A stretch of DNA of 64,000 nucleotides, taken from NCBI RefSeq assembly GCF_000223985.1, contig NZ_AFWV01000010.1, forward strand, positions 186,001-250,000, in the 5' to 3' direction. The DNA comes from Thiocapsa marina 5811 (GTDB taxonomy: Bacteria > Pseudomonadota > Gammaproteobacteria > Chromatiales > Chromatiaceae). This document shows, in pieces, positions 43,536 through 63,285 of this stretch (the stretch's first letter is position 1; each line of letters begins with the position of its first letter). The notes below the pieces were generated by a model. It saw only the letters and a program-made list of their open reading frames with translations, was not told the origin of the DNA and made no database searches. The position numbers and the translations under genes were made by a program.

Positions 43536-44732
43536 ATGCGTATCCTGATTGCCGATGATGCAAGCGATGCGAGGGAGATCCTCGGGCGCCTGCTCAAACG
43601 CTGGGGGCATGAGGTCGTGACGGCAAGCAACGGCCGCGAGGCGTGGGAGATCCTCGAGCGCGAGACGATCCGTCTGATCATCAGCGACTGGATGATGCCC
43701 GAGATCGACGGACTGGAGCTGTGCAGACGGATCCGCGCCGTGCAGTGGGACCATTACGTCTACTTCATCCTCTTGACTGCCCGCGACGACAAGGAGGATC
43801 TGATCGAAGGCATGACGGCGGGTGCCGATGATTTTTTGACGAAATCCTTCAATTTCGAGGAGCTGCGCGTGCGGCTGCGTGCCGCCGAGCGTATTTTGAG
43901 CCTTGAAAGCCAGCTCGCCTCGCGCAACAGAAAGCTCGAAGAGACCAACAGCAAGCTCCACGCCGCACTCGACCGGATCGAGCAGGATCTGCGTGCAGCG
44001 GCGGCCCTGCAAGCCAGCCTGTTGCCGAAGGATCCGAACGCGTCGCCTGCCATGGCCTTGGCTTGGTTGTTCCTGCCCGCGACCGAGATCGGCGGGGATA
44101 TCTTCGATTTTTTTCGTTTAAACGACCGCGACCTCGGGTTTTATCACCTTGATGTCGCGGGGCATGGCGTGCCCTCGGCGATGATGTCCGTCACCCTGAG
44201 TCGAACCCTGTCGGCGGAGCTCAGCGAGGGGCATTTGATCGCTCCCCCCGGAGGCGAGATTCGCGTCAAAGCCCCGGATGCCGTCGTGGCCGAGCTTAAC
44301 CGGCGCTTCCAATCCGGCGAGAACGCACCCTATTTCACCATGGTATACGGCTACATCGACACCGACTCGGGACGCGGCGAGCTCTGTCAGGCCGGCCATC
44401 CCTATCCGCTGCTGGCTCGCCGAGACGGACATGTCGAACAGGTCGGACACGGCGGATTTGCCGTCGGGATGCTCGAAGGAGTGCCCTACGATTCAGTCGC
44501 CTTCACGCTGGAGCCCGGCGACCGGCTGATCCTCTACTCGGACGGCATCACGGATTGTCGCAACGCCGAAGGCGAGAGCTTCGAGATCGAGCGCTTGATC
44601 GGCCTGACCGGAGACTGCATCGATACACCTCCGGCAACCTTGACGACGCGCGTGGACGAGACCTTGAGGAGCTGGCGCGGAGCGGGAGAGATCGAGGACG
44701 ACATCTCGCTGTTGGTGCTCCAACGGCGATGA
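43536..44732 (+). CDS. Response regulator with PP2C-type serine phosphatase (RsbU-like)
   Basis: A 398-residue protein. The receiver has LIADDASDAREIL, phosphoacceptor Asp51 in LIISDWMMPEIDGL, and FLTKSFNFEEL. A coiled coil (residues about 125-155) leads to a SpoIIE/PP2C phosphatase: EIGGDIFDFFRLNDRDLGFY, DVAGHGVPSAMMSVTLSRTL and LYSDGITDCRNAEGE carry the metal-binding aspartates. Such proteins dephosphorylate STAS antagonists. A STAS gene lies 700 bases downstream, so it is the likely substrate. No HATPase anti-sigma kinase is present here. Confidence 0.92.
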   Translation: MRILIADDASDAREILGRLLKRWGHEVVTASNGREAWEILERETIRLIISDWMMPEIDGLELCRRIRAVQWDHYVYFILLTARDDKEDLIEGMTAGADDFLTKSFNFEELRVRLRAAERILSLESQLASRNRKLEETNSKLHAALDRIEQDLRAAAALQASLLPKDPNASPAMALAWLFLPATEIGGDIFDFFRLNDRDLGFYHLDVAGHGVPSAMMSVTLSRTLSAELSEGHLIAPPGGEIRVKAPDAVVAELNRRFQSGENAPYFTMVYGYIDTDSGRGELCQAGHPYPLLARRDGHVEQVGHGGFAVGMLEGVPYDSVAFTLEPGDRLILYSDGITDCRNAEGESFEIERLIGLTGDCIDTPPATLTTRVDETLRSWRGAGEIEDDISLLVLQRR

Positions 44733-44957
44733 GCGATCGGGCGCGAGCGCGAAACCGCCGCCCCGAAAAGTGAACAAGGACACTGCCCAACACCTGCTCA
44801 GAGCGCTATCCTTAGGCGCGAGGGCCTCGCCCCGCGACCGAACGCCGACACCAGTCGGCCCGGGTCCGCGCGCGGCCCGGCTGATCCGCTTACCGCCGGG
44901 CCTCGGATCGCGCACACCGGCTCCGGTGTCTCGCGCCACGACCACAACCGATATCGG

Positions 44958-45326
44958 ATGAACAGCATGTCAGGTTCAGGAGAAGATCGGATCGAGACGG
45001 TCATCGACACAAGCGTCCTCGAAGACATCCGTGATCTGATGGAAGATGATTTTCCCGATTTGGTGCGGCGTTTTCTTAAGGATTCCGCCGACCTGCTCGC
45101 TCAACTGGATCAAGGCATCGCCCTGAGCGATACCGATTCGGTCCACCGCGCGGCCCATACGCTCAAGTCGAGCTCCGCGGCACTCGGCGCGCTGGCACTC
45201 TCCGATCGCGCCAAGCATCTGGAGGCCCTCGGTCGCTCGGGGATCCTCGTCGGCGCAGCATCGGAAGCGGCTGCGGCCCACGTCCAGCTCGCGCGCGTCA
45301 AGGAGATCCTGGAGAGGGACATCTGA
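44958..45326 (+). CDS. Hpt-domain phosphotransfer protein
   Basis: A 122-residue helical protein. VHRAAHTLKSSSAALGALAL carries His67, the phosphorylated histidine of Hpt domains, after FLKDSADLLAQLDQGIA. It has no other domain. Lying between the receiver-PP2C and STAS genes, it could pass phosphate from a hybrid kinase (perhaps the one at 27314-29821) to the receiver of the phosphatase. That link is inference. Confidence 0.9.
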   Translation: MNSMSGSGEDRIETVIDTSVLEDIRDLMEDDFPDLVRRFLKDSADLLAQLDQGIALSDTDSVHRAAHTLKSSSAALGALALSDRAKHLEALGRSGILVGAASEAAAAHVQLARVKEILERDI

Positions 45327-45439
45327 GGCGGGATCCCGACCATGATGCCGAACCTTCGGGCCCGCGCCGCCCTGCTCGGCAAGCCTCTCGTCAAGTTACG
45401 GATCCCGATGCAAAAACAACCGCCCGACCGCCGGAGCAC

Positions 45440-45787
45440 ATGAGGATGAAAGCAACCGTTACCCATCGGAAGATCGGCCAGGTCGACACCGTCGCCATCG
45501 CCGGACGCTTAACCGCCGCCGAGGCGCCGGCCGTTCGGCAGGAGATCCTCCAGGTTCTGGAGCGGGGCGACGCGCGCCTCGTTCTGGACCTGCCCGAGAT
45601 GACCTTCTGCGATTCAAGCGGCCTTTCGGTGCTGATCTCCGCACTCAAGGCTGCGCGCGGCAGCGGCGGCAACGTCTCCCTGGCCGGACTCACGCCCGCG
45701 GTTCGGGCGCTCATCGAGCTGACCCGCCTCCAGCAAGTCTTCGAGATCTTCGATGACGCAGAGGTCGCCGCCGCGCGAATGGGTTAA
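45440..45787 (+). CDS. STAS-domain anti-sigma factor antagonist
   Basis: A 115-residue STAS protein. VDTVAIAGRLTAAEAPAVRQ, LVLDLPEMTFCDSSGLSVLI and GNVSLAGLTPAVRALIELTR are typical. Ser59/Ser60 in CDSSG is the phosphorylation site controlled by partner switching. It is located 31 bases before the Wza-like gene on the same strand, so it may control polysaccharide export at the protein level or belong to its operon. Confidence 0.92.
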   Translation: MRMKATVTHRKIGQVDTVAIAGRLTAAEAPAVRQEILQVLERGDARLVLDLPEMTFCDSSGLSVLISALKAARGSGGNVSLAGLTPAVRALIELTRLQQVFEIFDDAEVAAARMG

Positions 45788-49037: not shown

Positions 49038-49160
49038 GGCACCACAAAAGACAACCGCCGCCGAAACGATCCCGCCCTCCCTCGCGCTCGGCCCGAGCAC
49101 ACCGCGGCCGAGTCTCGGAGCGAGCCGTCTGCCGGTTCGACAGTGTTGCAATCGGGTCGC

Positions 49161-49207
49161 CTGCCGTTTCGGCACGTCGTTCAGAGCGAAACCTGCCGAA
49201 ACGGCAG
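49161..49207. promoter_or_regulatory. Pair of CTGCC-N5-GGCA(G/C) palindromes (upstream activator sites)
   Basis: CTGCCGTTTCGGCAC (49161-49175) and CTGCCGAAACGGCAG (49193-49207) have centres 32 bases apart, about three helix turns. They also pair with each other as a 14-bp hairpin. The same motif pair lies upstream of 53117. The likely ligand is the sigma-54 activator encoded at 51264-52622. They lie about 235-280 bases before the promoter at 49440. Confidence 0.7.
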
Positions 49208-49439
49208 ACGAGGCCGGTTTGAGGAGACCCCCTTGCGTGCCCGACGGCCGACCAAAAAATCGTTTTTTATATTAAAAACATTGGTTTATATCTTTTCAAC
49301 GAACGACATCGGCGCACGAAGCGCGCACTGAGCGAAAGGTCCGGCGGCTCGCTCACATGCGTTTTTTAAAAAATTAACTCACTAATTTAAAAAGTATTTT
49401 TATGCAGATCCTCCGATTTTTCCGGCACGCGCACTTCGA
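49208..49439. other. AT-rich leader region
   Basis: Unusually rich in A and T for this genome, with TTTTTAAAAAATTAA and AATTTAAAAAGTATTTTT just before the promoter. Such tracts commonly hold IHF sites or intrinsic bends between enhancer and sigma-54 promoter. No gene is visible. Confidence 0.5.
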
Positions 49440-49455
49440 TGGCACGCATTATGTA
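49440..49455 (+). promoter_or_regulatory. Sigma-54-type promoter of LruC-domain gene
   Basis: TGGCACG-CATT-ATGTA: the -24 box is perfect, the -12 box has GT in place of GC. An almost identical sequence lies at the same distance from the next secreted-protein gene (53058-53073). The distance from the -24 T to the ATG is 62 bases here and 59 there. Confidence 0.65.
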
Positions 49456-49501
49456 TTTATCGGACGAGTCTCTAAACGCCTCGACAGATAGGAACCCATC
49501 G

Positions 49502-51130
49502 ATGTCTATTCGCCACCCTCTCTTGACCTCACTGGCCACCGTCGCGCTCGGCGCCGCGGCTCAACCCGGCCTGGCGGTGACCTGGTCCTACGTCGGTGGG
49601 TACAATGCCGACGGGGTCCCCAATACGCTCGTGGACTCCAGCAGCAGGATACCTCCCGACCTGTTGAACGAGATCCACACGCGGTTGCCGGAAAGCCGGG
49701 ATATCCGCAAGAACGACCCCAGACTCATCACCGATGATCTCGGAGCCAACATCACCCTGCTCGAAGACGCGGAGATCACGGTCGCTTTCGTCTATGAAGG
49801 CGCCGGGTATCGCAATTCACTCGGGTATTTCACCTTCGATCCGGCCAATACACCGGCATCGCCGAACGCGCTCGACCCGAAGATCATGTTTCCGAATTTC
49901 TCCTTGCCGTTGTTGAAGTTCGGCGACGCGGTCGAACTTGGAACATTCAAGGCCGGCACTGCAGTCGGCTTCACCGTGGTCTCCGACGGATGGAAAGGCA
50001 AGGGCGTCAATTCGAACCAGCCTTCCGACAGAATCTTCCACACCCTGAAGACGCTGAACCCCGAACCGGCCGGAACCAATAATCTCAACGCCCACACGGT
50101 CCTGCTGTCGAAGCCCGAGGATGAGCTGCTGGTGCTGGGATTCGAGGACATGAATCGGACCTGGTCAAGCAGCGACCACGATTTCAACGACGCGCTGATC
50201 GCGATCATCGTGTCGCCCTTTTCCGCCGTCGATCGCAGCCAGGTGCAGTCGCTGACCCTGCAGGTGAAGGACACCGACGGAGACGGCATCAGCGACGATA
50301 TGGACGCCTTTCCGCTGGATCCGAAGCGGGCCGCGCGACGCTTCTATCCCAGCGCCAGCGGCTTTGGTTATCTGGCCTTCGAAGACAACTGGCCGAGCAA
50401 GGGCGATTTCGACATGAACGACCTGGTGATGGCCTATCGGGTCGTGGAAACCCTGAATGCCCACAACGAGGTCACCGATCTGAAGCTAATCTACGAAATC
50501 ACCGCGCGCGGCGGCACGGCGCAGACCGCGTTCGGCATCCATTTGCCCGGGATCGAGCGTGGTCTGATCGACACCGCCGCGACCACGCTCTCGATCGGCG
50601 ATAAGACACCTGTCGGGTTACCCGCCGAGTCAGGCCAGCGCGAGGCGGTCTTCATTCTGGCGCCGAAACTGCCCGACCTGGCCAAGACCGGCGAACGCTG
50701 GCCCTGCAGCTTCTTCAACACGATCAGTAGCTGCGCCGCACATTCGCCCGTACAGCTGACGGCGCAGATCCAGTTCAAAGAACCCGTGAGCGCCTCTCGC
50801 CTGGGCGTCCCTCCGTACAACCCATTCATCTACAGGAATCAGCGGGGCCGCGAGATCCATCTGGTGGATCGGCCGCCGACGGACAAGGCCGACCCGACCC
50901 TCTTCGGCACGGGCGACGACGCCTCCAACCCGGCCGAAGGCCGCTTCTACCGGACCGCCGACAACCTCCCCTGGGCGCTGGACGTGCCCGAGAACTGGAC
51001 GCATCCGGCAGAATGGAACGACGTCGCTGACGCCTACCCGGACTTCGCCACCTGGAGCGCAAGCGGCGGTCGGTCGACGGCGAACTGGTACATCGGCAAC
51101 ATCAACAAAGGGCTGCTGTTTCAGCCTTAG
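49502..51130 (+). CDS. Secreted LruC-domain protein with DUF4114
   Basis: A 542-residue exported protein. A signal peptide covers residues 1-25 (LTSLATVALGAAAQPGLAV). A DUF4114-like domain has VAFVYEGAGYRNSLGYFTF and VLGFEDMNRTWSSSDHDFND. A thrombospondin-3-like calcium motif, DTDGDGISDDMDAFPLDP, leads to the LruC domain: YLAFEDNWPSKGDFDMNDLV. There is no C-terminal anchor or PEP-CTERM tail. The ATG at 49502 has AGGAA upstream; an in-frame ATG at 49439 overlaps the promoter and is rejected. Homologues are surface or matrix proteins. Location inside an EPS locus and sigma-54-type control support a matrix role. Confidence 0.88.
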   Translation: MSIRHPLLTSLATVALGAAAQPGLAVTWSYVGGYNADGVPNTLVDSSSRIPPDLLNEIHTRLPESRDIRKNDPRLITDDLGANITLLEDAEITVAFVYEGAGYRNSLGYFTFDPANTPASPNALDPKIMFPNFSLPLLKFGDAVELGTFKAGTAVGFTVVSDGWKGKGVNSNQPSDRIFHTLKTLNPEPAGTNNLNAHTVLLSKPEDELLVLGFEDMNRTWSSSDHDFNDALIAIIVSPFSAVDRSQVQSLTLQVKDTDGDGISDDMDAFPLDPKRAARRFYPSASGFGYLAFEDNWPSKGDFDMNDLVMAYRVVETLNAHNEVTDLKLIYEITARGGTAQTAFGIHLPGIERGLIDTAATTLSIGDKTPVGLPAESGQREAVFILAPKLPDLAKTGERWPCSFFNTISSCAAHSPVQLTAQIQFKEPVSASRLGVPPYNPFIYRNQRGREIHLVDRPPTDKADPTLFGTGDDASNPAEGRFYRTADNLPWALDVPENWTHPAEWNDVADAYPDFATWSASGGRSTANWYIGNINKGLLFQP

Positions 51131-51263
51131 ACGATCGATCGACAGTGTCGGCGGATGGGCATTCGGTCGTGCCCGGGGCCCGCCGCCGGCGATGCGCCGC
51201 ACCACCGGCGGCGCCTTCAGACACCCCGAAGCACACAGCACTCGGCTGCGGGTCCCGGCCCAT

Positions 51264-52622
51264 TCACTCGGTAGCCTCGGAAGACGCCTTCAGATCGGCC
51301 AGCAGCCGATAGAGCGTGCGCTCTCCGATCCCCAACGCCCGCGCCACCGCAGAGCGGTGCCCTTCGTGGCGCTCGAGCAGCAGCTTCAGATAGCTCCGCT
51401 CGATCTCGGCAAGGGTCGGCTCGTGATCGAACCTCAGCGTCACCCCGTCGTCCGGCGCACTCGCGGGCGTTCGAGAGAGCGTGAGGTGCTCCGGATCGAC
51501 CTTCAGCTTGTTGCCGGACAGGATGATCGCCCGCTCGACGATATTGCGCAGCTCCCGGACATTGCCCGGCCAGTCATACGCCACCAACTGCTGCATGGCC
51601 GACGCACTCGCGCGCTTGACGATGCGTTTGGACTGCCCGTGATGCGCCAGAAAATACCGCACGAGCGGTGGAATATCCTCGCGGCGTTCGCGCAACGGCG
51701 GCACATCGACCACGAAGGAATTGAGGCGATACAACAGGTCCTGGCGAAACTCACCGCGCTGGGCCATCCCGTCGAGATCCCGATTGGTCGCGGCCACGAT
51801 CCGCACCTCGGCCTTCAGGTCCGTCGCAGAACCGAGACGGCGGAACCGTTTGGTCTCGAGCACCCGCAACAGCTTGGCCTGAATCGGGGCCGGAATCTCG
51901 CCGATCTCGTCCAGAAACAGGGTCCCGTCTTTCGCCTGCTCGATCAATCCCGGCTTGCGTTGGGCCGCGCCCGTAAAGGCCCCGCGCTCATGCCCGAACA
52001 GCTCGGACTCGAACAGTGTCTCGGGTAGCGAACAACAGTCCACAGCGACCAGCGGCCCCTCGGCCCGCGGGCTCAAGCGGTGGATTTCCTGGGCCACCTT
52101 TTCCTTGCCGACGCCGCTTTCGCCGAGGATCAAGACCGTCGCCTCCGTCGCCGCGACGGCCTTCAGATCGGCCAGAAGCCGCAGCAGAGGCGCGCTCTCG
52201 CCCACCAAGAGGCTGGGGGCTTCGTGCCGCAGCACGCTGGTGTAGAACTCGCCGCGCCTGTAGAGGAGAACGTTGTCGATGATCCGTCGGACCGCACCGG
52301 CCAGCTCCTGCGGGTCCACGGGCTTGGCCAAGAACTCGCTTGCCCCCAGACGCAGGGCCTGCAGGGCAACCTCCATCCCGTCCTCGCCGCAGAGCACGAG
52401 GATCGGGAGATCCTGTGCCCAAGCCTCCATCCTATCCGCGTCCAGGTCGCCGGGCCATGGATCGTCCAACAGGATCAAATCAGGCGCATCGGAGGACAAG
52501 AGCCCTTGAGCACCGTCCCCGTCCGCGACGGCGCTGACCTGATAACCGAAACGACTCAGTGTCTCCGACAGATCGCGACGGGCCTCTTTGTCCACGCTCA
52601 CCAGCAGGATATGGTCGGTCAT
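51264..52622 (-). CDS. Sigma-54-dependent response regulator (NtrC family)
   Basis: A 452-residue activator. The receiver has PDLILLDDPWPGDL (Asp53/54) and FLAKPVDPQEL. The AAA+ domain has Walker A LILGESGVGKEKVA, the sigma-54 contact loop ERGAFTGA, Walker B GTLFLDEIGEIP and LRELRN-type sensor (WPGNVRELRNIV). The C-terminal Fis-type helix-turn-helix is HRSAVARALGIGERTLYRLL. The start at 52622 (MTDHILLV) matches the receiver fold; longer frames add low-quality sequence. It lies between two sets of secreted-protein genes that share sigma-54-type promoters and paired palindromes, so those are its likely targets. Confidence 0.93.
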   Translation of the reverse strand: MTDHILLVSVDKEARRDLSETLSRFGYQVSAVADGDGAQGLLSSDAPDLILLDDPWPGDLDADRMEAWAQDLPILVLCGEDGMEVALQALRLGASEFLAKPVDPQELAGAVRRIIDNVLLYRRGEFYTSVLRHEAPSLLVGESAPLLRLLADLKAVAATEATVLILGESGVGKEKVAQEIHRLSPRAEGPLVAVDCCSLPETLFESELFGHERGAFTGAAQRKPGLIEQAKDGTLFLDEIGEIPAPIQAKLLRVLETKRFRRLGSATDLKAEVRIVAATNRDLDGMAQRGEFRQDLLYRLNSFVVDVPPLRERREDIPPLVRYFLAHHGQSKRIVKRASASAMQQLVAYDWPGNVRELRNIVERAIILSGNKLKVDPEHLTLSRTPASAPDDGVTLRFDHEPTLAEIERSYLKLLLERHEGHRSAVARALGIGERTLYRLLADLKASSEATE

Positions 52623-52842
52623 GGCTGATCTTTTCATCCGAATCGCAAGAGTGGAGCGGCGTGCGCAAACCCGATCACCGCCATCGGCGATGACTCCGGC
52701 GCGAAGGCTCGAACCGCGGTTTCCGCGCGATTTTCTTCGGCGGACGACGGAGCTTCGCCGATCCGAAACATCATAAGGCTTCCCGGGCGGCACATCAGAA
52801 TCGGCAAGCCAGGGATGCGCGACGGTGGAGACTGCGGCATCC

Positions 52843-52940
52843 CTGCCGGACTGGCAGAGCCGCCTTTCGCACATCGAGCTGATCATCACCTTTCCACCGA
52901 TCGAACGGGACCGCATCGGCAGGGACTGCCATACCGGCAG
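52843..52940. promoter_or_regulatory. Second pair of CTGCC-N5-GGCAG palindromes
   Basis: CTGCCGGACTGGCAG (52843-52857) and CTGCCATACCGGCAG (52926-52940), centres 83 bases apart, about eight helix turns. They lie in the 494-base divergent region between the regulator gene and the secreted-protein genes, 118-215 bases before the promoter at 53058. The regulator may also control itself from them. Confidence 0.7.
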
Positions 52941-53057
52941 GGTCAAAACCCACCGAGCTGCGAATCTGGCAGCTCCCCCCCTGCAACCGCTGCCAACAGA
53001 TGACCGCGGCAGGAAAAAGAAGCAAACAAAACAAGTCGTTACAATTTTTTAGGCGTT

Positions 53058-53073
53058 TGGCACGGAAGATGTA
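53058..53073 (+). promoter_or_regulatory. Sigma-54-type promoter of secreted-protein pair
   Basis: TGGCACG-GAAG-ATGTA, with the same perfect -24 box and the same unusual -12 box as 49440-49455. It is preceded by an A/T tract (ACAATTTTTTA). The predicted start of transcription is near 53085, about 32 bases before the gene. Confidence 0.65.
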
Positions 53074-53116
53074 TATCTAGTCACAGATTCTTCATCTTGC
53101 CCTCAGGACTGCCACC

Positions 53117-53509
53117 ATGACCATCCGCCGCCCCCTGTCGATCTCGCTGGTGCACATCGGCCTCACGATTCTGGTCTTGGCCGGAGCCGCCTACAGCACC
53201 TCGGTCCGCGCGGACATCGACGAGGTTCAACCCAGCACCGAATTCCGGTACGAGACCAGCCGCTGGACCGAGGTGGACATCGCCCTGGCAACCAACGACG
53301 GCAACCCGGCGCTGCTCAGCATCTACAGCAAGGGGGCCAACGGTCTGCGGCTGCTGCAGAATGCCTTCACCGACACGCAAGGCCGCTTCTTCGGCGAATT
53401 GCAGCTGCCCGCTCACCTCGACAGCGTGGTGGTCGTCGTGCGCACCGCTGACCGGCAGGATACCCTTGACCTCATCGTCGGCGAGAACTTGATCGCCTAC
53501 GCCGAATAA
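53117..53509 (+). CDS. Small secreted protein resembling an LruC-protein N-terminal domain
   Basis: A 130-residue protein. A signal peptide covers residues 1-32 (IGLTILVLAGAAYSTSVRA). The mature part is a beta-rich domain with TEVDIALATNDGNPALLSIY, then LLQNAFTDTQGRFFGELQLP and VVVVVRTADRQDTLDLIVGE. This order (a strand pair, FTD-xxGxFxG, then a V-rich strand) resembles the N-terminal region found in some LruC-domain proteins of other bacteria. Here it would be a separate polypeptide. It follows a sigma-54-type promoter and lies 32 bases before a second secreted-protein gene. Confidence 0.7.
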   Translation: MTIRRPLSISLVHIGLTILVLAGAAYSTSVRADIDEVQPSTEFRYETSRWTEVDIALATNDGNPALLSIYSKGANGLRLLQNAFTDTQGRFFGELQLPAHLDSVVVVVRTADRQDTLDLIVGENLIAYAE

Positions 53510-53541
53510 CGCTGCTCACCGACGCTCGGGAGATTCGACCC

Positions 53542-53994
53542 ATGATGACGTTCACATCGAAAAAACAATGGACCGGGGCGGCACTCGCCCTGCTGATCAC
53601 CGGAAGCGCCTTGGGTGCACCGCCGGTCTCCGTCGGTCAGCTTGAATTCGAGCCGATCCGCCTCGCCGATGCGGCGGGCGCGAAACTGGAGCGGGCCATC
53701 TTGACCTACATGGACGATGCCTACGAGGTCAGGGTCAACGGCTTGGGCATCGGCGGAGCGGCCGGAGTCACCGTGAGCGTGACCGGAGAGGTCAGCGGGC
53801 TCAAGAAACTGATGGATCTCGAAGACATCTTCGTCACGTCGCTTGCCGACCCCTCGGAAACGGATGTCAGCAGCGACGATCTTTGGATTCAGAGTGATCG
53901 CGGCGTGACGATTCGCCTGCGCACGGACAATCCGAACGTGGGCATTGCCCCGGGAAGCGACGAGGTCACTGTGCTGTTCGGGTGGGGGGAGTAG
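53542..53994 (+). CDS. Secreted protein of unknown function
   Basis: A 150-residue exported protein. The signal peptide is residues 1-25 (WTGAALALLITGSALGA). The mature part is acidic and beta-rich (GAKLERAILTYMDDAYEVRV, VTVSVTGEVSGLKKLMD, DDLWIQSDRGVTIRLRTDNP). No cysteine and no membrane helix. I do not recognise the family. It lies 32 bases after the preceding secreted protein and is very probably in the same sigma-54-type operon. Confidence 0.75.
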   Translation: MMTFTSKKQWTGAALALLITGSALGAPPVSVGQLEFEPIRLADAAGAKLERAILTYMDDAYEVRVNGLGIGGAAGVTVSVTGEVSGLKKLMDLEDIFVTSLADPSETDVSSDDLWIQSDRGVTIRLRTDNPNVGIAPGSDEVTVLFGWGE

Positions 53995-61880: not shown

Positions 61881-62726
61881 TCAAGGCGGCGTGAGCTGTT
61901 TCGGGTCGCCGGCGAGGAAATCGCCGTAATGCTTACCGGAGGCCGTATCACCATTCGAGAAGAGAACATGTCGTGTACCGCCGATCTGCAGATAAACGCC
62001 GGACACCTCGGATGTGATTTTTCCGTTTGCGTCGCGTTTGTAGAAGACCTTGAAGTCCGAGATCGGAGCGTATCCGCTGCGATTGAAGTCCGTGATGCCT
62101 GCGAACTCAAAAAACGCGTCCATGAACGGGGTATTATTGCTCCAGGAGAAAGAGGCGTTACCCACATTATCCGGCTTGAACACCCCCCCATCCGCCAACC
62201 ATTTTTTCGTAAATTCCTTAAACGCCCTCATCAGCTCGGCGACAGTGTCTTCGATGTCCTTCGGATCGGTGGACGTCCTGTAGCCCCCGGCGACGTCGTC
62301 GCGACAAATCGGCGGAACCTGACTCGCGAGCGTTGCCGACGTCTTCAGACAGCTCCAGACGATCCCGCCGCCGTTCTCGCTCGGAACCAATCGCAGCTCC
62401 GGATCAACCCTCGCACCGGTGTTCTGAGTCGTCACCGAGATCACCCCGGCATCCTCGATCGCGAGCGCCCTGACATAGCGACTGAACGAAGCCGAATCGC
62501 CGACGATACCTGTCTTCACGTTCGCGAGACCGCCGTTTGCCGCCTGTTCGACCACGGTGCTCTTGAGTGATGACGCCATCCCCAGCGCCTCGCTCACCTT
62601 GGAGCGAATGCTGTAGTCCTGAAACGCAGGAACGGCAACGGCTGCAAGGAGCCCGATCACGGCCACGACGATCATAACCTCGATGAGGTTGAAGCCCTTC
62701 TGGGCGTAATTCATTCGGCGATTCAT
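61881..62726 (-). CDS. Type IV pilin-like protein with long C-terminal domain
   Basis: A 281-residue prepilin. The short leader MNRRMNYAQKG is cleaved before FNLIEVMIVVAVIGLLAAVA, with the required Glu5 of the mature protein. AFQDYSIRSKVSEALGMAS is the usual next helix. PilA proteins are about 140-170 residues; here an extra 110 or so carry SWSNNTPFMDAFFEFAGITD and a beta-rich end. Cysteines in WSCLKTS and PPICRDD may form the disulfide. It stands alone, convergent with the APH-like gene. No other pil genes are near. Confidence 0.88.
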   Translation of the reverse strand: MNRRMNYAQKGFNLIEVMIVVAVIGLLAAVAVPAFQDYSIRSKVSEALGMASSLKSTVVEQAANGGLANVKTGIVGDSASFSRYVRALAIEDAGVISVTTQNTGARVDPELRLVPSENGGGIVWSCLKTSATLASQVPPICRDDVAGGYRTSTDPKDIEDTVAELMRAFKEFTKKWLADGGVFKPDNVGNASFSWSNNTPFMDAFFEFAGITDFNRSGYAPISDFKVFYKRDANGKITSEVSGVYLQIGGTRHVLFSNGDTASGKHYGDFLAGDPKQLTPP

Positions 62727-63285
62727 CTGAACACCTGCTCCCTTGAAAATCTGTTTTGATCCCGCCTCGAGCACCCGAGCCGCGGCCCACTTCGGAAACG
62801 ACACAGGTCAGCCGAGGCATCGAGACGGCGAGCCCCTATGCATCCATGTCACCGGACCTTGCAGGCAAAGACCGGACCATGCAACCTGTGATGATCCGGC
62901 CAATCGACCCGGTCGAGCGTCCGCCGGAGCTACAAACCGCCTGACTCCTTGTCGGAACCGGGCGCCGAACCGACCGTTCGTGTCGGGACCGAGGTCACCG
63001 CCAGCCGGAGACACGCCGGGTCGCTGCCTGTCAAAAGGTGACCCATGTCGCAGGCTCGCAGGGGACTATCGTCCATGCTCTCGGGGAACGGCCGACGAGC
63101 GCACCCGCAAGATCGGCCGCTCCGGTCCCTCCGTCGAGCACACGAATCCGGACGATCTCGCCGAGATCGCCGAAGTCGACCCCGGGTCCGATCCCGTCGA
63201 TAGGACTGGAGCCCCGCATCGCATGGATCTACACTCATTCGACGGAAGCTCGGAAACGACGACAACGGCTGGAGGGCGGACAGGC
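62727..63285. other. Divergent region between pilin and glycosyltransferase genes
   Basis: About 560 bases with promoters for both flanking genes expected. Short frames are present but none is convincing. I recognise no sigma-54 box, palindrome pair or repeat element here. Confidence 0.4.

Follow-up and report, generated by a model that had tools for sequence, protein, structure and literature searches.

A putative sigma-54 regulon of exopolysaccharide-linked secreted proteins with a pseudo-receiver activator in Thiocapsa marina 5811

The locus described here lies in a 64,000-nucleotide stretch of the genome of Thiocapsa marina 5811 (contig NZ_AFWV01000010.1, positions 186,001 to 250,000; hereafter the window, whose numbering is used for all coordinates unless a contig or stretch is named). 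Two units of secreted-type genes on the forward strand flank a reverse-strand gene for a sigma-54 activator (51264–52622), a layout that agrees in all positions with an original prediction made from the DNA alone. Unit 1 contains the gene for a 542-amino acid LruC-domain protein (49502–51130), in which domain profiles identify a DUF4114 domain and an LruC/DUF4842 domain, with an Asp-rich loop. Unit 2 contains the genes for two small proteins, p130 (53117–53509) and p150 (53542–53994). All three products have signal-peptide-like N-termini, as judged by eye.

Both units are preceded by the -24/-12 promoter sequence TGGCACG-N4-ATGTA, at 49440–49455 (TGGCACGCATTATGTA) and 53058–53073 (TGGCACGGAAGATGTA) on the forward strand, located 62 and 59 bases ahead of the ATG codons at 49502 and 53117 as had been predicted. 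In the 5.59-Mb genome of the strain (G000; other G codes denote relatives' genomes and L codes the DNA stretches examined), this sequence has just two exact matches, both at this locus, and nine places match with at most one mismatch. The columns of the promoter boxes are invariant at 12 of 12 positions for unit 1 (four genomes aligned) and at 10 of 12 for unit 2 (three genomes), 22 of 24 in total. Operators and promoters were compared in 12 orthologous units from eight genomes, namely those alignable to a promoter; the p130 unit of G130 was omitted because its contig ends before the promoter. The start codon lies 59–63 bp from the TGG in all 12. A shared variation of the -12 box had also been proposed. 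The T that replaces the consensus C (TGTA) is indeed found in 10 of the 12 units, but the leading A is present in only six (T in four, C in two). The A/T-rich tract reported before the promoter was recovered as well (each unit has 60% A+T in the 60 bp immediately before the promoter, and the 12 units range over 50–82%). The rpoN gene was found in five of the five genomes searched.

Upstream of the promoters lie candidate operators of the form CTGCC-N5-GGCAG. The four palindromes described earlier, at 49161, 49193, 52843 and 52926, are all present, but each unit holds three rather than two: additional copies with one mismatch each, at 49129–49143 (CTGCCGGTTCGACAG) and 52958–52972 (CTGCGAATCTGGCAG), had been overlooked. 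In unit 1, operator 1 (49193–49207) is an exact dyad supported by alignment, operator 2 (49161–49175, CTGCCGTTTCGGCAC) ends in C, which is one mismatch from the strict pattern, and is kept in G128, G129 and G130, and operator 3 is the copy at 49129; the spacings are 32 and 32 bp. In unit 2, operator 1 is the copy at 52958, located 32 bp from the exact dyad of operator 2 (52926–52940), and operator 3 (52843–52857), also exact, lies 83 bp outside operator 2. With one mismatch allowed, chance alone would give 0.006 and 0.028 sites in the two intergenic regions, whereas three were found in each, and none of the 20,000 dinucleotide shuffles of either region reached three. Eight places in the window match the strict palindrome with up to one mismatch, six of them in these two units. 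The earlier statement that the palindrome occurs nowhere else is correct for exact copies within the window but not genome-wide, where 12 exact copies exist, three of them here; when G or C was allowed at the end, the genome-wide search returned 48 rows, and the reversed control 144.

Operator spacing is conserved across genera. The inner two sites are exactly 32 bp apart in all 12 units, and a third site lies 83–85 bp further out in seven of the eight p130-type units. The omitted p130 unit of G130 also contains all three sites, spaced 84 and 32 bp. The distance from the inner site to the TGG is 99–104 bp in p130-type units and 247–270 bp in the four LruC-type units. In the alignments of three and four Thiocapsa genomes, 53 of the 60 half-site columns are invariant versus 256 of 623 other intergenic columns (28 of 30 versus 126 of 279 in the p130 region, three genomes; 25 of 30 versus 130 of 344 in the LruC region, four genomes).

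The 32-bp-spaced pair was also searched for with R1, a sequence-only model built from 12 sites that include both of G000. R1 matched this locus in G000 at E values of 2.8e-7 and 9.5e-7, and the next other place had an E value of 0.37 among the best 150 of 6,234 first-look candidates; one of the two places was also matched on the opposite strand (E 0.0019). Random density of the motif across the genome, which had been named as an outcome fatal to the prediction, was thus not observed, the only two R1 places below 1e-6 being those at the locus. At the sequence level, the tandem-operator signal is confined to this locus in its own genome. A class-wide R1 search of 369 genomes with stricter filters matched G000 alone. 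Single dyads elsewhere in G000 were considered as further regulon members and rejected: five of the nine exact off-locus places were checked, and in none of these was there a partner site up to 300 bp away or a -24/-12-like sequence up to 400 bp away. The exact dyad at C56:173115, which lies inside a 736-amino acid reading frame beside another activator gene, was taken as a chance occurrence.

A wider search by DNA pattern over named genomes yielded at least 118 stretches, all 118 of which were then checked for homologues. Five (L110, L144, L149, L153 and L215) represent the module itself; the module-bearing records are Thiocapsa roseopersicina DSM 217, Thiocapsa sp. UBA6158 and two of uncultured Thiodictyon, and the flank of L215 matches G129. 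L140 contains a remote activator (38% identity) approximately 4.8 kb off, and in the other 111 stretches neither a homologue (E ≤ 1e-10) nor, within 320 bp, a match to the -24/-12 expression was found. The gammaproteobacterial record L106 (1–900) encodes a different AAA+ activator, 57.5% identical over approximately 106 residues, which faces rhodanese-like and metallo-beta-lactamase-like genes (assigned by eye).

The distribution of the genes links the regulator to the LruC protein. Among 210 genomes of the order searched for both proteins, 15 contain an LruC match at E ≤ 1e-30, comprising nine full-length orthologues (at least 61% identity, G000 included), five weaker matches (36–43%) and a fragment in G023. 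The regulator was found at E ≤ 1e-135 in nine of the 210, exactly those with a full-length LruC orthologue, and the other eight regulators are 74–89% identical to that of T. marina. In the five genomes with weaker matches, neither the regulator (E ≤ 1e-110) nor, in the stretches read, tandem sites were found. G128 and G129 have two units as in G000, and the contig of G130 stops before the p130 promoter. In G035, G133, G159 and G160, a single promoter is followed by p130, p150 and LruC genes with the convergent regulator gene behind them; the module of G086 is divided over contig ends. Autoregulation through the region shared by the regulator gene and unit 2 (52623–53116) was considered and discarded, as this arrangement is not conserved across relatives: the regulator and LruC genes of G035, G133, G159, G160 and G086 converge, and the stretches read show no dyad pair ahead of the regulator gene. 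In the congener G023, the module has decayed. An LruC fragment lies directly ahead of p130 and p150 fragments (L042:8700–9500), nothing remains of the regulator or of either promoter, and of the palindromes just the left part of one survives; the exopolysaccharide (EPS) genes flanking this remnant on both sides are 88–94% identical.

Two variant arrangements were also observed. G159 contains a second copy of the operon (L090, G159:C468) with operators and promoter and with no regulator gene within the 12-kb stretch read, so that one regulator may serve two loci in this genome. In two Thiodictyon genomes (L040:5152–6327, reverse strand; L088:5147–6400, forward strand), the regulator gene begins approximately 12 bp behind another frame. 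That of L040 matches type I phosphodiesterase (PF01663), and a co-transcribed partner is possible.

Profile scans agree with the predicted domain order of the regulator: a receiver (PF00072, 47.7 bits against a cut-off of 30.2), an AAA+ domain (PF00158, 219.4 bits) and a Fis-type helix-turn-helix (PF02954, 41.2 bits). Together with the GAFTGA motif of the AAA+ domain, which is intact in nine of nine orthologues, these are the domains of an NtrC-type enhancer-binding protein. However, the receiver is not that of an ordinary response regulator, a point on which the original prediction needs amending; active-site residues have been lost, and the complete five-residue site of canonical response regulators is absent. 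All nine orthologues lack the first of the paired acidic residues (position 10) and have an invariant Cys (Cys78) in place of the receiver Thr/Ser, the phosphosite is Glu in five and Asp in four (including Asp53 of T. marina), and the conserved Lys is changed to Arg in three. A pseudo-receiver has been defined as a receiver in which any one of DD, D, T and K is missing (PMC12632262). By this definition, all nine orthologues have pseudo-receivers, five of them Asp-less, and according to the same source, Glu is the residue most often present where atypical receivers lack the D. Phosphorylation is therefore unlikely to be the switch. No kinase gene was found beside the regulator among the window genes scanned. 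G000 contains at least 11 homologues of the regulator at E ≤ 1e-60. Of five paralogues with 45–50% identity, three retain the full active site and two (from G035 and G160) do not; two of the three complete-site paralogues (G133 and G021) are encoded directly behind a HAMP-histidine-kinase gene. A tree of 14 proteins separates orthologues from paralogues at 100/100. The history of the regulator was likely one of loss of kinase control.

The LruC-domain protein scores 276.6 bits with TIGR04456 over residues 290–530, well above the cut-off of 36. Its D-x-D-x-D loop has Asp residues at 257, 259, 261, 268 and 273 that are invariant in all 15 aligned proteins, and both its structure model (mean predicted local distance difference test score 79.8; Foldseek E 2.9e-13) and its profile (E 9.5e-19) best match the Bacteroides lipoprotein 3oqq. 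The DUF4114 domain of Myxococcus PilY1.1 has been described as containing a calcium pocket and as occurring in sugar-binding proteins (PMC9109919). Neither p130 nor p150 has a Pfam family or an NCBIfam family above cut-off (best E 0.091 for p130). A transthyretin/Ig-like fold was considered for p130, but the matches are weak (best E 1.4e-3, mean score of the model 75.4), and p150 matched only designed repeat proteins over approximately 30 residues; neither fold is claimed. Two genomes, G159 and G086, encode a bacterial sugar transferase (PF02397; L087:12102–13124, reverse strand, and L089:2231–3253, forward strand) that continues in frame at its C-terminus into a p130-like domain, and the fusion of G159 lies inside the operon. 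G035 has a frame (L039, L041) that resembles this fusion and is a candidate further case. The original prediction placed the locus inside an EPS locus. This is the case in four of the nine genomes (G000, G128, G129 and G130), where Wza- and Wzz-type genes lie just upstream of LruC, but it was not seen in G035, G133, G159, G160 and G086, where homologues of the EPS genes of Thiocapsa were not found within the stretches read. The cassette is therefore partly independent of the EPS locus, although its EPS link appears to persist through the sugar-transferase fusion. Taken together, the EPS neighbours in Thiocapsa, DUF4114, the calcium-type Asp loop and the fusion suggest that an EPS-associated role of the products is likely; the matrix or surface role offered originally as an inference retains that standing.

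Elsewhere in the window, genes for a receiver-SpoIIE phosphatase, an Hpt protein (44958–45326, 5.9 kb from the regulator gene) and a STAS protein occupy 43536–45787, immediately ahead of the EPS export genes. These genes resemble the SypF/SypA/SypE control circuit of Vibrio fischeri.

We consider it probable that the locus is a self-contained sigma-54 switch in which a pseudo-receiver activator controls a private regulon of secreted, EPS-linked proteins. Its core, that is, a sigma-54 regulon of two units under the activator encoded between them, appears well supported by the conservation of operators and spacing across genera, half-site conservation, co-occurrence in nine of 210 genomes, a signal confined to the locus and the presence of rpoN. 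We infer that the activator binds the CTGCC-N5-GGCAG dyads as a Fis-type dimer. Dyads 32 bp apart, approximately three helical turns and hence on the same face of the DNA, would nucleate the AAA+ ring together with the outer third dyad, the intervening DNA would loop, and the ring would open sigma-54 polymerase at TGGCAC-N5-TGTA. In T. marina, two tandem-operator promoters would thereby produce the LruC-domain protein, p130 and p150, and in sister lineages one such promoter would serve all three genes. As the normal phosphorylation site of the receiver is lost, the most probable options are a constitutively active protein whose output follows its amount, or control through a ligand, a partner or redox state. 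Calcium-dependent sugar binding probably places the products in or on the exopolysaccharide.

Several observations weigh against this interpretation. The nine genomes share kinship and do not represent nine independent events. R1 matches at the locus arise by construction, so that the evidence lies only in the absence of further matches, and R1 scored just the best 150 (first search) or 16 (class-wide search) first-look candidates per genome. The best off-locus R1 matches, G128:C71 (E 0.0036) and G157:C7 (E 0.0097), are unexplained, and G157 is a genome without the regulator; the best values in the other four regulator-less genomes are 0.062 (G023), 0.16 (G131), 0.59 (G127) and 0.77 (G162), and that in G086, where contig ends cut the upstream DNA, is 0.49. 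The outermost operator of the LruC unit (49129) is not kept in G128, G129 or G130, and G133 has no outer site at up to one mismatch. Two of the five contrast paralogues likewise lack some active-site residues. Furthermore, the operators are linked to this regulator by association, and L106 carries two CTGCC-type dyads 32 bp apart with a TGGCACG box 79 bp on, next to its different activator. The type and spacing of the sites may therefore be common to several activators, and the dyads could serve another activator encoded elsewhere, with the neighbouring gene a bystander, as the many homologues of the activator in G000 would allow. Nevertheless, the regulator and the LruC protein occur in the same nine genomes and are both lost in G023, which makes a bystander highly improbable. 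Still harder to reconcile with the data is repression by the regulator, or by an unrelated repressor using the dyads. The dyads alone do not give the sign of control, but GAFTGA is present in nine of nine orthologues, sigma-54 promoters require such an activator, and the sites lie 99–270 bp upstream of the promoters without overlapping them; we regard this explanation as exceedingly improbable.

The regulator could also be a working response regulator whose Asp53 is phosphorylated in Thiocapsa, for example by the nearby Hpt protein or by a distant kinase. Asp53 and Lys100 are retained in four of nine orthologues (that of T. marina included) and the second acidic residue in seven, and the Hpt, STAS and receiver-SpoIIE genes, 6–8 kb from the regulator, leave room for some phosphorylation. 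Given that all nine have lost the first acidic residue and Thr/Ser, that five with the same operators have Glu in place of Asp, and that no kinase gene was found among the scanned neighbours, we consider this unlikely. More weight is due to the possibility that the regulon is real and its products are not matrix proteins but, for example, adhesins, pilus-associated proteins or glycan-binding scavengers. DUF4114 is present in Myxococcus PilY1 (PMC9109919), a pilin-like gene lies at 61881–62804, and five of the nine loci have none of the EPS genes sought in the stretches read; set against the sugar-transferase fusion and the EPS neighbours in four genomes, these points leave it a minority possibility that deserves attention.

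According to a 2025 review (PMC12632262), the means by which bacterial pseudo-receivers are turned on and off are a mystery. The locus offers a clean natural case, with one regulator, two promoters and operators defined to the base, and with natural contrasts in the orthologues with Asp or Glu at the phosphosite, the kinase-linked paralogues and the congener with a decayed copy of the entire module. In addition, it brings to light two protein families that neither Pfam nor NCBIfam has named, one of them tied to exopolysaccharide by the sugar transferase fusion. A bolder and unlikely idea is that a purple sulfur lineage made a kinase-controlled activator phosphorylation-free for one private calcium- and sugar-binding cassette, with Cys78 as a redox or sulfide sensor; if so, sulfide or redox state would govern the production of the secreted proteins.

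A literature search, mostly outside subscription papers, found no paper combining 'LruC domain' with 'sigma-54'. Titles and the opening parts of abstracts on DUF4842, the LruC domain or DUF4114 did not describe this locus, nor did the matches listed in further searches. By analogy, the systems closest in logic are the PrsK-PrsR regulon of PEP-CTERM proteins and SypG. As in PrsK-PrsR (PMC1569441), a sigma-54 activator of response-regulator type is combined with a dedicated upstream motif and -24/-12 sequences before EPS-tied secreted proteins, and pepA, a gene of a PEP-CTERM regulon, is RpoN-dependent (PMC9850573). In contrast, the present regulator falls short of the PrsR cut-off (TIGR02915, 333.9 bits against 502.6), has a pseudo-receiver and no adjacent kinase gene among those scanned, and has tandem operators at two promoters only. 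The products gave no NCBIfam PEP-CTERM match at E ≤ 0.1, a search that very short models may escape, with the C-termini inspected by eye. A PrsR-family gene above cut-off was found in two of ten genomes, G159, which keeps the module, and G023, which has lost it; this pattern may be coincidental. SypG of Vibrio fischeri, also a sigma-54 activator, is likewise associated with an EPS locus, but it receives its input from the RscS-SypF relay and has the reported site TTCTCA-N3-TGMDWN (PMC4517449, PMC10162802), whereas the conserved sites here are CTGCC-N5-GGCAG and the receiver is degenerate.

Other activators share single features with this regulator. FleQ of Pseudomonas aeruginosa is likewise an activator of sigma-54 type whose receiver is atypical (PMC12632262). 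The AAA+ part of the present protein matches the FleQ chain 5exp (E 1.1e-67, from residue 139), but its receiver fits PF00072, and PF06490 (FleQ) matches at just E 0.06. FleQ has a cyclic di-GMP motif before its AAA+ domain; such a motif was not seen here, where residues 135–138 (A-P-S-L), invariant in the nine orthologues, precede the domain. DctD2 of Vibrio vulnificus is an EPS-cluster enhancer-binding protein able to act without phosphorylation, but it is normally phosphorylated (PMC9040800), whereas the present regulator has no known partner. As in the atypical response regulators described in PMC12632262, part of the five-residue active site is missing from the regulator; unlike in those, the receiver is joined to an AAA+ domain with GAFTGA and to a private regulon defined by sequence. 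Sigma-54 control of EPS-linked secreted proteins is thus a known theme, which here would be exercised through an activator that has a pseudo-receiver and a regulon of its own.

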